Positions 448-4,986 of a stretch of 32,850 nucleotides of DNA are shown piece by piece (position 1 is the stretch's first letter; every line of letters starts with the position of its first letter). Both the position numbers and the translations under genes were made by a program. The stretch is from Methanomassiliicoccaceae archaeon (GTDB lineage Archaea; Thermoplasmatota; Thermoplasmata; Methanomassiliicoccales; Methanomethylophilaceae): the NCBI GenBank assembly GCA_003555025.1, contig PWHV01000029.1, positions 1 through 32,850 of the forward strand, written 5' to 3'. The notes under the pieces were generated by a model, which was given only the letters and a program-made list of their open reading frames with translations, searched no databases and had not been told where the DNA came from.

Positions 448-1605
448 ATGCTTAGCAAGAACATGATCGTGGTCGCAGTGGTCGCCGTTCTGGTCATAGC
501 GTCGGTAGGGGTGATACTCCTGGTGGAGACTGAGGACAAGGATCCTCAGATCAACATACTGGCGCAGGTGAACTCGGAAGGCTCTGCGATCTTCGTCAGC
601 GGTGAGATAAACAGCTTGGAGGACTTCGGGGGCAAGATCTTCGCAACCCCGGGACCGGACTCCATCCAGCACATGATGCTTATGAACTACATCACCGAGG
701 AGACGGATTACGATTTCCGTGCCGCTCCGGGGGAAGGTGTTGAGAAGAGCGATGACGTGGTCTACTGGACTCAGGTTGGTCCCGTGCAGATGAAGGATTT
801 CCTTGAGGATGGCACCATACAGGGCGGCATCGCCTGGGAGCCCTACAACTCGCAGATAGTGGCTGAGGTCGATGGGGCTTGGATCTACAAGTGGTCCGAC
901 GAGCTCATCGAGGCCCACCCCTGCTGTGTCTTGGCCGTGAATTCGGAGTTCGAACAGAACAACCCCGAGACGGTGGAGAGGTTCGTCGCCGCCCATGTGG
1001 TGGCCACCGCCTGGATAATGGAGACCGTCCAGGACAACACATCCGCCAACTACAGTTACATGGTCGATATCGGGTCCAAGTTCGCCTTCGGTGACAACTC
1101 GACCGAGGACAAGGAGGTGACGAAGGACTCGCTGTCGCATGTGGCCTTCGACTATGCCATCACCGATGCGTGGAAGTCCTCTTTGGAGGATGTTGTTGAC
1201 ACCTACGCCACCCTGGGCCTCTTCGAGAAGGACCCTGAATCCCTCGGATACGACACCAACGAGGAATTCGTGGACACGATTGTGAACACCACGTACCTGG
1301 AGAACGCCGCCAACGTGTCCGAGGCGGATGAGGCCGATGAGTTGCTCGATGTCCGCGTCGGATGGCTCGCCGGCGACATCCACCAGCTCGCCAGGCTTGT
1401 TGCCATGGACGAGAACATCGGCGCGGGACTGGGCTACGGTGACCGCAGCATATTCGAGGCCTTCGGCCTCAACATAATCGGCGGCGACGGAAACCCCTAC
1501 GCCAACGGCGGCGTGGTCATGGACGCGTTCTTCAGCGACGACATCGACATCGGCTACCTCGGCGCCCCGCCGGCCATACTGAGGACCGTCAACGCGATGG
1601 CCTGA
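448..1605 (+). CDS. ABC importer substrate-binding protein, NMT1/SsuA/TauA type, circularly permuted
   Basis: Solute-binding protein of the sulfonate/nitrate/taurine family. Residues 7-26 form a hydrophobic N-terminal anchor with no lipobox cysteine, so it is probably membrane-tethered on the outside. The domain order is odd. Residues from about 32 (DPQINILAQVNSEGSAIFV, then SLEDFGGKIFATPG) correspond to the second half of TauA/SsuA-type proteins. Residues 301-385 (DVRVGWLAGDIHQLARL, later DAFFSDDIDIGYLGAPPAI) correspond to the first half. The protein ends RTVNAMA, exactly where a normal protein would continue into the sequence seen near residue 32. An acidic linker, about 285-300, joins the swapped halves. 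The AGGTGA ribosome site decides the start. It is followed by permease and ATPase genes. Substrate unknown. Confidence 0.9.
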   Translation: MLSKNMIVVAVVAVLVIASVGVILLVETEDKDPQINILAQVNSEGSAIFVSGEINSLEDFGGKIFATPGPDSIQHMMLMNYITEETDYDFRAAPGEGVEKSDDVVYWTQVGPVQMKDFLEDGTIQGGIAWEPYNSQIVAEVDGAWIYKWSDELIEAHPCCVLAVNSEFEQNNPETVERFVAAHVVATAWIMETVQDNTSANYSYMVDIGSKFAFGDNSTEDKEVTKDSLSHVAFDYAITDAWKSSLEDVVDTYATLGLFEKDPESLGYDTNEEFVDTIVNTTYLENAANVSEADEADELLDVRVGWLAGDIHQLARLVAMDENIGAGLGYGDRSIFEAFGLNIIGGDGNPYANGGVVMDAFFSDDIDIGYLGAPPAILRTVNAMA

Positions 1606-1684: not shown

Positions 1685-2491
1685 ATGATGCCCCTGAGAT
1701 ACGACCCCGACAAGAAGCTCCATCAGTTCGCCAGGGTCCTGGGCATAACCATCGTTTCACTGTCCCTGCTGGTCCTCGTATGGTGGATGATCGCCCTGCT
1801 TATCGACATCCCTTATCTGCCCACGCCCGTGCGGGTCTATGACGCTTTCTGGCGCCTCATGGAGTTCGGCGATGTGGCCACGGGCCTCACCATGGGCGAG
1901 CATGTCCAATCCAGTCTGCAGAGGTTCGCGGGCGGGTTCGCCATCGCTTTCGCCATCGCCGTCCCGCTGGGCCTGGCCATGGGCTACTCCCAGACCACAG
2001 AGGAGTTCTCCAACCCTATAATCGAGGTCATCAGGCCCATCGCCCCCATGGCGTGGGCCCCGCTCTTCATACTCTCCATGGGTGCGCTACTCGGACCGAT
2101 GATGGTGGTCTTCATAGGGGTGTTCTTCCCGGTGCTCTCCAACACCATTTTCGGAGTGAAGAAGATCGACCCCTACATGGTGGACGCGGCCCGCACATTG
2201 GGGGCCAACAACCTCCAGGTGTTCTACAAGGTGATGTTCCCCTGCACCGTGCCGTTCATAATGAACGGCATAAAGATAGGGCTGGGCATCGGCTGGATGT
2301 GCATCGTGGCGGCGGAGATGATCATCGCGTTCGGCGGCGGCGTGGGTTACTTCATACTGACACAGTCGCAGATAGGCAACTGGTCCAACGTCTTCGTCGG
2401 CCTGTTCCTGGTCTCCGCGCTGGGTATCCTGACCACCGGGCTCGCCGACCGCGTGCACCGCATCGTCGTGAGGAGGGTGGGGATGGAATGA
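1685..2491 (+). CDS. ABC importer permease, SsuC/TauC type
   Basis: Integral membrane subunit of the importer. The 268 residues hold about six hydrophobic segments. The cytoplasmic EAA-type loop that contacts the ATPase is visible: DAARTLGANNLQ, then a proline after KVMFPCTVPF. Length is normal for the BPD_transp_1 family. Start ATG 1685 is followed directly by another ATG. The spacing to the binding-protein gene is 79 bases and includes a T-rich stretch and a palindrome. The stop overlaps the next start as ATGA (2488-2491), which implies translational coupling with the ATPase. Family is clear; substrate is not. Confidence 0.93.
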   Translation: MMPLRYDPDKKLHQFARVLGITIVSLSLLVLVWWMIALLIDIPYLPTPVRVYDAFWRLMEFGDVATGLTMGEHVQSSLQRFAGGFAIAFAIAVPLGLAMGYSQTTEEFSNPIIEVIRPIAPMAWAPLFILSMGALLGPMMVVFIGVFFPVLSNTIFGVKKIDPYMVDAARTLGANNLQVFYKVMFPCTVPFIMNGIKIGLGIGWMCIVAAEMIIAFGGGVGYFILTQSQIGNWSNVFVGLFLVSALGILTTGLADRVHRIVVRRVGME

Positions 2492-3255
2492 ACGAGAGCC
2501 TGAGCATCAAGAACCTGGAGAAGGTCTTCAAGACCGAGGACGACGAGGTGGTGGCGATCGCCGACTTCAACCTCGATGTGAAGAAGGGGGAGTTGGTCAG
2601 CCTCCTCGGGCCCTCCGGCTGCGGCAAGACCACCATACTGCGGATGGTGGCGGGACTGCTCGAGCCCAGCTCCGGGGATGTCGTCGTCGCCGGCAACAAG
2701 GTCAGCGGGCCGGGCTCCGACCGCGGCATGGTGTTCCAGGAGTTCGCCCTCTTCCCTTGGAGGTCAGTGCGGAAGAACATCGAGTTCGGTCTGGAGCTCT
2801 CCGGCGTGCCCAAGGCGGAGAGGGAGCAGAGGGCCAACGAGTACCTGGAGATGGTGGGCCTGGAGAGGTTCGCCGATGCCCGGATACACGAGCTCTCCGG
2901 GGGAATGAAGCAGCGGGTGGGCATCGCCCGCGCCCTCGCCAACGACCCCGAGGTCCTGCTCATGGACGAGCCCTTCGGAGCGTTGGACGCGCAGACGCGC
3001 AACATCATGCAGAAGGAGCTGCTCAAGATCATCAAGAGGACGGAGAAGACCATCCTCTTCGTCACCCACTCGGTGGACGAGGCCGTTTTCCTCTCCGACC
3101 GCATCGTGGTCCTCACCAAGCGGCCGGGGAGCATCAAGGAGATCATCGAGGTCCCCTGGCCGCGGCCGCGGGACCGCGCCTCGCCGGAGGTGACGGAGAT
3201 GCGCAAGAGTATACTCGATGAGCTTGAGAAGGAGAACGTGATGAACGACGACTAA
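2488..3255 (+). CDS. ABC importer ATPase, SsuB/TauB type
   Basis: Nucleotide-binding subunit, 255 residues. Walker A is GPSGCGKTT (41-49), the Q-loop is VFQEF (82-86), the signature is LSGGMKQR (136-143), Walker B is VLLMDE (156-161), and a switch histidine lies in FVTHSVDEA. All key residues are intact. The start codon overlaps the permease stop (ATGA) and follows an AGGAGGG ribosome site at 2471. The frame is also open upstream of 2488, but that part runs antisense-like through the permease gene and has no ABC features. The last four bases overlap the stop of the convergent regulator. Confidence 0.96.
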   Translation: MNESLSIKNLEKVFKTEDDEVVAIADFNLDVKKGELVSLLGPSGCGKTTILRMVAGLLEPSSGDVVVAGNKVSGPGSDRGMVFQEFALFPWRSVRKNIEFGLELSGVPKAEREQRANEYLEMVGLERFADARIHELSGGMKQRVGIARALANDPEVLLMDEPFGALDAQTRNIMQKELLKIIKRTEKTILFVTHSVDEAVFLSDRIVVLTKRPGSIKEIIEVPWPRPRDRASPEVTEMRKSILDELEKENVMNDD

Positions 3256-3770
3256 AGCTCGTCCTTCACTTTCTCTATGGCGCGTATGATGCTGTTACCG
3301 GGGATGACCACCGATACCGGTATGGTGAGGATCTTCTCCACCGTGGGGGCGATTATGGGGGCGCAGACGACGGCCAAAGCGCCGTCCCTCTCCGCCTTCA
3401 CCGAGGCGACGATGGCGTCCTCCATCGTTGATGCGGGGTACTCCTTCACCGTTACCGGCTCTTCGCCGACGCGGACTATCCTCTCCTCGATGGACTGCAG
3501 CACCGGCCGCGAGGCGATCACCGCCACGAAATGGCCGCCGTGGGAGTCGCTCATGCGGCGCACCGCCTTGATTATCTGCCGCACGGTGCGGAGGTTGGGC
3601 TCGCGCTGCTCCTCCAGTATCTTGTACATGGTCGAGGGGGAGAGGTCGGCCCGTTGGCAGAACTCGTTGACGCTGATCGCCAGGTCCTCCTCGAGTATCT
3701 TGCGCAGCGCCTCCTGGAAGCCGCCCTCCTTGCGCAGCATCCCCGCGGCCAGCTCGTTGACCAGCGACAT
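3252..3770 (-). CDS. HTH transcriptional regulator (XRE-like) with a C-terminal ligand-type domain
   Basis: 172 residues from ATG 3770. Residues about 25-75 form a lambda-repressor-like helix-turn-helix (SVNEFCQRADLSPSTMYKIL, then EPNLRTVRQIIKAV). The C-terminal half is an alpha/beta segment (FVAVIASRPVLQSI; DGALAVVCAPIIAPTVEKIL) that looks like a small sensory or dimerisation domain. Its start overlaps the stop of the thioredoxin reductase-like gene (TGATG), so the three genes thioredoxin, reductase, regulator form one coupled operon. It may control that operon or a redox response; this is inference from position. Stop is TAG, overlapping the ABC ATPase stop by four bases. Confidence 0.85.
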   Translation of the reverse strand: MSLVNELAAGMLRKEGGFQEALRKILEEDLAISVNEFCQRADLSPSTMYKILEEQREPNLRTVRQIIKAVRRMSDSHGGHFVAVIASRPVLQSIEERIVRVGEEPVTVKEYPASTMEDAIVASVKAERDGALAVVCAPIIAPTVEKILTIPVSVVIPGNSIIRAIEKVKDEL

Positions 3771-4666
3771 CAGAGACCCCGGGCGTACTTGGCGGCCATC
3801 TCTCCGGCCACGCCCCCTTCGCCCGCCGCCTTGGCCACCTGCCATGGCTTGCCGGTGATGTCCCCGCAGGCGTAGACCCCTTCCACCCCGGCGGAGAAGT
3901 CCTTGTCGACGTTTATCTCGCCATCGGGGGTGGGCATCACGCCCAGGTCCATGGCCATGTCGGTGGTGGAGCGCGCTCCCAGCTCAATGAAGACCCCGTT
4001 CACCTCCAGCTCGCTGCCGTCCTCAAGAACAAGGGCGGACACTTTGTCGTCCCCGATTATCTCCTTGGGCGGCGAGGACACGGGCTCGGCGCCCGCGTTC
4101 AGCGCCTTCTCCCTCAAATTCTCAGAGGCATCCACCTCCTCAGCGACCCAATAGACCTTGCTGGCGTAGTGGGTCATCAGCTCCGCGGACACCGCCGCCT
4201 CGCTGCCGGCGCCGATCACCGCCACCGGCCTCCCCTTGTAGAAGTTGCAGTCGCAGGAGGCGCAATAGCTTACGCCCTTGCCGAAGAGCTCCTTCTCCCC
4301 GGGAATCTTGAGCTTCTTGCGCATGATGCCGGAGGCGATCACCACCGCCTTGGCCTCGATCTCCGTGCCGGAGTCGGAGAGCAGCCGGAACGCCCCCTCT
4401 GATGAGGACATCTCGATTATGTCCTCCTGCAGCAGCTTGGCGCCGAAGGACCGCGCCTGCTCCATGCCAATGTTCAAAAGCTCCTTGCCCGTCGCACGGA
4501 GCACACCGAAGTAGTTCTCCACCTCGGCGCCGTGCAGCGCGCTGTCCTCGGACCTGCCCATGACGATTGTCTTGGCTTTCTTGCGGGAGGAGCTGATCGC
4601 CGCCTGGAGACCGGCGGCCCCCATCCCCACGATGGCGACGTCGTAACTCAACTGGAACACCTTCAC
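3770..4666 (-). CDS. trxB: Thioredoxin reductase-like flavoprotein
   Basis: 298 residues. The FAD-binding motif GMGAAG is at 14-19. The redox-active pair CASC is at 135-138, and a second FAD motif, ACGDITG, is near 266-272. The nucleotide-binding site is unusual. Instead of the GGGxSA type it has GAGSEA (152-157), and the region that normally holds the HRR arginines for NADPH reads VYWVAEEVDASE. It therefore probably does not use NADPH. Thermoplasma reductase also lacks NADPH use, and a Methanocaldococcus enzyme uses F420H2. The start is GTG at 4666, overlapping the thioredoxin stop as GTGA. The partner is presumably the thioredoxin just upstream. Confidence 0.9.
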   Translation of the reverse strand: MKVFQLSYDVAIVGMGAAGLQAAISSSRKKAKTIVMGRSEDSALHGAEVENYFGVLRATGKELLNIGMEQARSFGAKLLQEDIIEMSSSEGAFRLLSDSGTEIEAKAVVIASGIMRKKLKIPGEKELFGKGVSYCASCDCNFYKGRPVAVIGAGSEAAVSAELMTHYASKVYWVAEEVDASENLREKALNAGAEPVSSPPKEIIGDDKVSALVLEDGSELEVNGVFIELGARSTTDMAMDLGVMPTPDGEINVDKDFSAGVEGVYACGDITGKPWQVAKAAGEGGVAGEMAAKYARGL

Positions 4667-4986
4667 ATCTTTGACTGCAGGTACTTCTTGATGTCTTCCT
4701 TGGGCCTGACACCGACCAGGGGCTCCTGCATGACCCCGTTCTTGAACACCAGCATCGTCGGTATGGCCGATATGTTGAACCGGTAGGATATGCCCGGGTT
4801 CTCGTCCACGTTCAGCTTGCCGATGGCCGCCTTGCCCGCCATCTCGTCGGCCAGCTCATCCAGTATGGGGGTCAGCATATGGCAGGGTTTGCACCACTGG
4901 GCCCAGCAGTCGACCAGCACCAGGGGGTTCCCCTCGATGAAGCTGTCGAAATTGTTGTCGGTGAGAGTTACGGTGTTGCCAGACAT
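4663..4986 (-). CDS. trxA: Thioredoxin
   Basis: Dithiol-disulfide carrier of 107 residues, normal length. The active site is WCKPC at 31-35, a Lys variant of the usual WCGPC, preceded by LVLVDCWAQ. The cis-proline motif is AIPTMLVF. The frame is open upstream of ATG 4986, but that start has a strong GGAGG ribosome site about 7 bases away, so it is preferred. It is first in an operon with the reductase-like flavoprotein and an HTH regulator. A TATA-like element lies about 60 bases upstream, so this mRNA has a leader. Confidence 0.95.
   Translation of the reverse strand: MSGNTVTLTDNNFDSFIEGNPLVLVDCWAQWCKPCHMLTPILDELADEMAGKAAIGKLNVDENPGISYRFNISAIPTMLVFKNGVMQEPLVGVRPKEDIKKYLQSKM

Follow-up and report, generated by a model that had tools for sequence, protein, structure and literature searches.

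The locus and its binding-protein gene

The DNA analysed, here called the window, is the whole stretch of 32,850 nucleotides (positions 1-32,850) of contig PWHV01000029.1 from a Methanomassiliicoccaceae archaeon (assembly GCA_003555025.1). The features on which this work centres are:

448-1605, forward strand: circularly permuted substrate-binding protein of the NMT1_2 / SsuA-TauA type, 385 aa, register arr2 (TM-S1-S2-F)
448-540, forward strand: N-terminal hydrophobic helix (residues 4-25, a helix in the AF2 model) and linker, either a membrane anchor or a signal left uncleaved
544-726, forward strand: S1 block, residues 33-93, with motifs VNSEGSA and ATPGPDSIQH; comes after F in ordinary proteins
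748-1317, forward strand: S2 block, residues 101-290, with motifs WEPY and HPCC; from segment order reading, circular profile and HHalign
1342-1602, forward strand: F block, residues 299-385, with motifs GDIHQLAR, YANGG and DIGYLGAPPAI; N-terminal in ordinary proteins
1685-2491, forward strand: permease (BPD_transp_1; TauC/SaoP-like), beside the binding-protein gene in almost every relative
2488-3255, forward strand: ATPase (ABC_tran; SaoA/TauB-like), its start overlapping the permease stop
3252-3773, reverse strand: helix-turn-helix regulator-like protein, conserved beside the operon
3770-4666, reverse strand: thioredoxin-reductase-like protein (Pyr_redox_2), part of a conserved block
4663-4986, reverse strand: thioredoxin, part of the same conserved block

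Judged from its sequence, ORF 448-1605 encodes, in a permuted register, the substrate-binding component of a NitT/TauT-type ABC importer found in Thermoplasmata archaea. It is a single-copy gene in its genome and the first gene of an operon whose BPD permease and TauBC/SsuBC-type ATPase are of the taurine/nitrate/SaoPA type. The protein scores 76.9 bits against PF13379 (NMT1_2), above the cut-off of 24.7. Against the NCBIfam profile SsuA_fam (TIGR01728) it reaches 69.6 with a cut-off of 163.5, placing it outside that subfamily, and it falls far under the NCBIfam cut-offs for SsuA, TauA and SaoX alike. A sequence search of the PDB gave only weak matches, to NrtC/CmpC regulatory domains. The same genome also encodes a separate, ordinary-order member of Pfam NMT1_2 (G000:C12, profile 7-238); thus the organism has both permuted and ordinary kinds.

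Among relatives the binding protein, permease and ATPase are kept together almost everywhere. At many loci they lie within a wider block that reads TPR-u257-Elp3-u149-[binding protein]-permease-ATPase-HTH regulator-thioredoxin reductase-thioredoxin, of which the window retains the regulator, thioredoxin reductase and thioredoxin downstream. The helix-turn-helix protein at 3252-3773 (reverse strand) and its homologues share a conserved C-terminal half that belongs to no named family, and adjoin the operon across the class; it is probably the operon's regulator. The Elp3, thioredoxin and thioredoxin reductase neighbours name no ligand, the transporter is not discussed in the consulted passages of Borrel et al. 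2014 (PMC4153887), and a literature search on 'SaoX' returned nothing relevant. We considered uptake of coenzyme M and do not claim it, since neither neighbours nor literature name a ligand.

Circular permutation of the window protein

Proteins of the NMT1-like/SsuA-TauA kind typically have the linear order F-S1-S2; the window protein is ordered S1-S2-F. The original prediction, made from the DNA letters, held that the usual second half stands first and the usual first half last, and profiles, orthologues and HHalign all confirm it. Pfam NMT1_2 matches residues 29-193 only, corresponding to profile positions 75-241 of 252, so the N-terminus lacks the first third of the profile. When the C-terminal block is placed in front, the match grows to 28-241 and the score rises from 76.9 to 87.6 bits. 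A Pfam scan of the F block by itself gave no match, and F was therefore checked by HHalign and against orthologues.

The ortholog search covered 121 related genomes. The C-terminal part of the window protein aligns with the N-terminal part of three ordinary-order orthologues, in which the remaining protein comes after F: residues 292-383 with G101 (55 % identity, E 6e-23) and with G084 (53 %, E 3e-21), and residues 301-383 with G089 (44 %, E 5e-16). Across the joint, ordinary-order orthologues read ..GSPPAILKSLNLKIDIIIVAMVNSEGSS.., where the end of F leads straight into the residues equivalent to position 32 of the window protein and those after it. Joining the window protein's C-terminus (..GAPPAILRTVNAMA) to its own residue 32 (DPQINILAQVNSEGSA) reproduces this sequence, GSPPAILKSLNLKIDIIIVAMVNSEGSS, exactly the junction that had been proposed. 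The proposed boundary at 300/301 was right to within a few residues, F starting near 297-300 and S1 near 33. When segments from the window family were compared by HHalign with 14 ordinary-order paralogues, F aligned at columns 68-132 (E 1e-10), S1 at 138-192 (weak alone, E 0.13) and S2 at 191-354 (E 8.5e-13).

We also aligned each protein to a circular profile, built from rotated sequences and doubled, whose period is 343 positions. The whole window protein aligns, without any large missing or duplicated part, and occupies 337 of the 343 circular positions with none redundant. A complete first domain followed by a truncated second one, the arrangement under which the predicted permutation would have failed, is excluded: the first beta-alpha-beta-alpha-beta block is missing from residues 33-293 and is precisely what residues 297-385 provide.

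Related genomes had been named as a place to look for the same order, and about 65 members of the window's family do retain S1-S2-F, several in single-contig genomes; it is thus not an assembly error. Most of the genomes are metagenome assemblies, and an artefact of assembly or binning must be weighed on that account. The registers nevertheless recur in many genomes from two collections, reading frames are open across the joints, and single-contig genomes carry arr2 (G009, G020, G044), arr3 (G043) and arr0 (G084); we regard an artefact as having a negligible chance. The window protein might also be a non-working relic of a fused dimer in which an incomplete first copy is trailed by a fragment of the second. 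Such a remnant would show this order, and fused tandems do exist in relatives (see below). Against it, S1-S2 and F make up exactly one circle, the order and the binding residues are conserved family-wide, down to about 30 % identity, and AF2 packs the protein as one confident fold, leaving this explanation very improbable.

Four registers at one syntenic site

That the same gene exists in multiple registers is evident only from relatives outside the window. Order was read with three segments defined on window residues, S1 (about 33-93), S2 (about 101-290) and F (about 299-385). Full-length proteins give one continuous match to the doubled profile, covering nearly the full circle once with few or no positions reused. 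The ordinary register, arr0 (F-S1-S2), was found in five genomes. Three permuted registers accompany it: arr1 (S2-F-S1), cut near circular position 150; arr2 (S1-S2-F), cut near position 82, in which the window protein covers 82 to 424; and arr3 (S2b-F-S1-S2a), cut near position 194 inside S2. The original prediction had allowed that relatives in TauA order would tell against it; that order does occur, in these five orthologues, and nearly all the others are permuted, in three different ways. The window's own family carries arr2 and arr3, and arr1 is the rule in the order's other families and in class-level relatives.

A scan of named genomes with a 7-row alignment as query (one of 15 rows proved too diverse to give patterns) added 47 loci, partly overlapping the genomes of the other search: 40 copies of arr1, three of arr2, two of arr0 and one of arr3, the rest partial. 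By their titles these belong to Methanomassiliicoccales, to other Thermoplasmata-type archaea or to unclassified euryarchaeal archaea. Scanning the contigs of named genomes with a single protein returned no relatives. Plasmid records held only distant homologues matching the S part, and the one from Halocatena is in ordinary order.

Since our own profile was made from rotated sequences, third-party curated profiles served as a control. The NCBIfam SsuA profile aligns positions 21-216 with residues 73-276 of the arr0 protein L167, positions 77-221 with residues 38-195 of the window protein, and positions 121-276 with residues 24-188 of the arr1 protein L136. Pfam NMT1_2 runs unbroken (profile 6-244) in the ordinary-order protein of G089; in the arr1 protein of G107 the later part of the profile (151-239) lies upstream of the earlier part (27-113).

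The ten-gene block is complete around the arr0 gene L167 and around many arr1 loci (L134, L138 and L174 among them), and is partly seen around the arr2 genes L129 and L130, which lie on short contigs. Since the registers share their gene neighbours, the ordinary and permuted copies are orthologues at one site and not paralogues.

In all registers an N-terminal hydrophobic segment precedes the fold. A lipobox-like ..TGC/AGC follows this segment in L131, L154, L159 and L169, which suggests that some members have a lipid anchor and others a plain transmembrane helix.

A few members have unusual structures. L089 (G114:C70), L090 (G105:C31) and L105 (G022) are permuted and carry long extra C-terminal parts, which by eye resemble fibronectin-III/PKD/beta-helix stretches or a carboxypeptidase-regulatory-like tail. 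The S1 end of L077 (G119:C53) is seemingly frameshifted relative to the near-identical L155, and in G086 (Methanomicrobia archaeon DTU008) the gene falls into two reading frames, broken inside F (L095/L168), by a frameshift, a sequencing error or pseudogene formation.

Predicted fold and candidate ligand site

The original prediction held that the permuted order could keep the fold, and structure prediction is consistent with this: AF2 models the window protein as one complete two-lobe chain (pLDDT 91.8, pTM 0.86). A model of an arr1 relative (92.7, 0.86) contains the same secondary-structure elements in rotated order. In these two models the cut points of the registers sit at different places in the secondary structure, and in the window model all of them fall in loops or linkers: at about 290-299 for arr0, 32-34 for arr2, 93-101 for arr1 and about 141-144 for arr3. 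The arr2 cut comes just before the first lobe crossing; those of arr1 and arr3 are in lobe 2. According to the original prediction, the new termini might place the membrane anchor on another face of the binding cleft, which could alter how the protein docks on the permease; a similar idea was put forward for TpMglB-2 (PMC4990184).

Foldseek matched the window model to NrtA, CmpA, SsuA, TauA and Thi5 with partial TM-scores of about 0.44 in a sequence-ordered comparison, and such partial scores are expected where a permuted chain is compared in sequence order. For the arr1 model the best matches among solved structures were OpuAC entries.

The presumed cleft carries the conserved motifs DxHQ, SIQ[HYF], WEP and HxCC in all registers. 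The candidate cleft residues D310, H312, Q313, S46, Q74, W130, H157, C159 and C160 are kept in the four registers and mostly differ in ordinary paralogues. Since these residues and the permease and ATPase partners are retained throughout, we infer that ligand capture and delivery are unchanged, and that every register would recognise the same ligand and pass it to the same permease. The vicinal cysteines of HPCC (157-160) and the DxHQ motif (310-313) are family-specific and absent from ordinary paralogues, and might point to an unusual ligand related to thiols or metals.

Number and direction of the permutations

To explain the four registers, the binding-protein tree requires four or more changes; with an outgroup and wider sampling the minimum becomes six, the outgroup being counted as its own state. 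The ATPase tree, which is independent of the permutation, needs seven, and permease and ATPase together need six. A single origin of arr3 is rejected on both the binding-protein tree (AU p = 1.3e-11) and the ATPase tree (3.9e-8), and the two arr3 groups also differ in fine breakpoint (193/531-532 versus 194/536). The register arr2 occurs only in the window's family and arr1 both in its sister families and beyond the order, which makes arr1 to arr2 the natural direction; arr2 most likely arose from arr1. Three permutations are firm, arr1 to arr2 once and arr2 to arr3 twice.

The place of the ordinary order in this history is less settled. By genome taxonomy arr0 and arr1 occur together inside genus g21 (G084 and G101 arr0, G111 arr1) and inside genus g23 (G089 arr0, the others arr1). 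At least one switch between arr0 and arr1, in either direction, is certain, and two or more additional ones are likely. Because the two orders share these genera, returns to ordinary order suggest themselves, and the nested arr0 genes may be reversions.

An alternative account would derive everything from one ancestral ordinary gene by as few single permutations as possible, arr0 to arr1 to arr2 to arr3, with no reversion and with the scattered arr0 genes retained or laterally moved. The trees leave room for it, since the tests allow both a single clade of all permuted forms, apart from arr0 and the outgroup (p 0.11), and a single arr0 clade (ATPase p 0.071; p 0.32 for the three arr0 genes within the order), and the arr0 genes L169 and L206 branch near the root. 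The outgroup branches are long. However, arr3 needs two origins regardless, arr0 and arr1 lie within single genera (g21, g23), and the arr0 gene L167 has the complete ten-gene block in common with the arr1 gene L174. We therefore hold the minimal series to be a tentative and rather doubtful alternative. The fuller reading, in which one orthologous gene in an essentially unchanged position was permuted at least five times within one archaeal class, with parallel cuts at almost the same site and returns to ordinary order, driven by in-frame tandem duplication and with a labile register possibly selected for the attachment of the tether, has about an even chance.

Fused tandem copies and a proposed route between registers

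In-frame fused tandem copies of the gene exist in four genomes. In G115 an arr1 copy occurs twice in a protein of 731 aa (L006, 511-2706), the copies abutting at residues 390/392; in G044 (L059), G050 (L063) and G409 (L210) an arr2 copy occurs twice, in proteins of 770-793 aa. The two copies in G044 are very similar (end branches of about 0.07), so this duplication is recent. In the G115 fusion the first copy lacks the HPCC and SIQH residues and the second retains both. Such genes fit what permutation by duplication predicts. They are not sisters of the permuted lineages that they could have produced, and therefore show that the step happens, not that the present genes came from it.

We place at about 90 % the probability of the following reading: the binding protein of a NitT/TauT-type importer occurs in four registers of one operon gene, with the history arr1 to arr2 to arr3 (twice), a tandem-duplication mechanism and an unchanged function. 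The register arr1 would already have been in place in the ancestor shared by the methanogen order and its relatives in the class; arr2 would have arisen from it at the base of the window's family, and arr3 from arr2, twice. The few ordinary-order genes among arr1 relatives would be reversions, or a retained or imported ancestral lineage. At each change an in-frame tandem duplication would yield a fused dimer, and a new start inside the first copy together with a new stop inside the second would leave one complete circle cut elsewhere. Such a change could lead in a single step to any other register, with the circle read once after an N-terminal anchor in each. That these particular genes passed through fused dimers is what we infer from the tandem copies found in their relatives.

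The same final order could be reached without a dimer, if F (or S) had once been a separate gene and was re-attached at the opposite end. However, none of the searched loci contains F, S1 or S2 as an intact gene of its own, and the sole split gene, L095/L168, whose pieces overlap in F, has the appearance of a frameshift or pseudogene; in-frame fused dimers, on the other hand, do exist. We consider fission and fusion improbable, though it may have had a part in the deeper arr0/arr1 step, and prefer the route by tandem duplication.

Relation to known permuted proteins

The SsuA, TauA, NrtA, CmpA and Thi5 (NMT1-like) proteins share sequence family and, by prediction, fold with the window protein; they have the order F-S1-S2, and ordinary paralogues lack the window family's DxHQ and HxCC. 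Several circular registers within one protein family are known from the permutation classes of the DNA methyltransferases. These enzymes are listed as a case of circular permutation (PMC2395249). Their registers span a deep superfamily with many functions, whereas those described here occur in orthologous operons of closely related archaea.

Among binding proteins, TpMglB-2 (Tp0684) of Treponema is a permuted type I glucose-binding protein for which, together with Gram-positive relatives, the designation 'Type Ic / Cluster Bc' was proposed; its fold and ligand binding are kept, and its authors raised a link between permutation and tethering, without direct evidence (PMC4990184). Much like the window protein, TpMglB-2 has the first three strands of lobe 1 at the C-terminus and an N-terminal tether. 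It differs in being bacterial, of the type I sugar-binding fold and described in one register, whereas the window family is of the TauA/SsuA kind (type II), archaeal and found in four registers in one syntenic operon. Assignment of the window protein to Type Ic / Cluster Bc was considered and rejected, as both sequence and Foldseek comparisons match it to the NrtA/SsuA/TauA group and not to MglB-like proteins.

Glycine-betaine-binding OpuAC and ProX form a circular-permutation family of CPSARST (PMC2395249) and, like the window family, belong to type II and are circularly permuted relative to each other. They are distant homologues (<24 % identity) compared by structure and belong to a different ligand family; unlike the window family, they present no series of registers within one operon. 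In the open-access literature, with subscription papers mostly outside the search, we found no permuted protein of the NitT/TauT type and no orthologous gene in multiple registers. Single permuted binding proteins are thus already known, and repeated permutation of one syntenic operon gene is apparently unreported.

Natural permutations have usually been inferred between distant homologues, with the result that the steps are lost. Here close relatives have the same operon, conserved flanks and conserved candidate binding residues, together with four registers and possible intermediate dimers. The system therefore allows direct tests of how permutation happens and whether it is reversible, and of how register affects folding, ligand affinity and the docking of a tethered binding protein. 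It also bears on annotation, as linear profiles split or shorten these proteins and Pfam covers less than half of the window protein.
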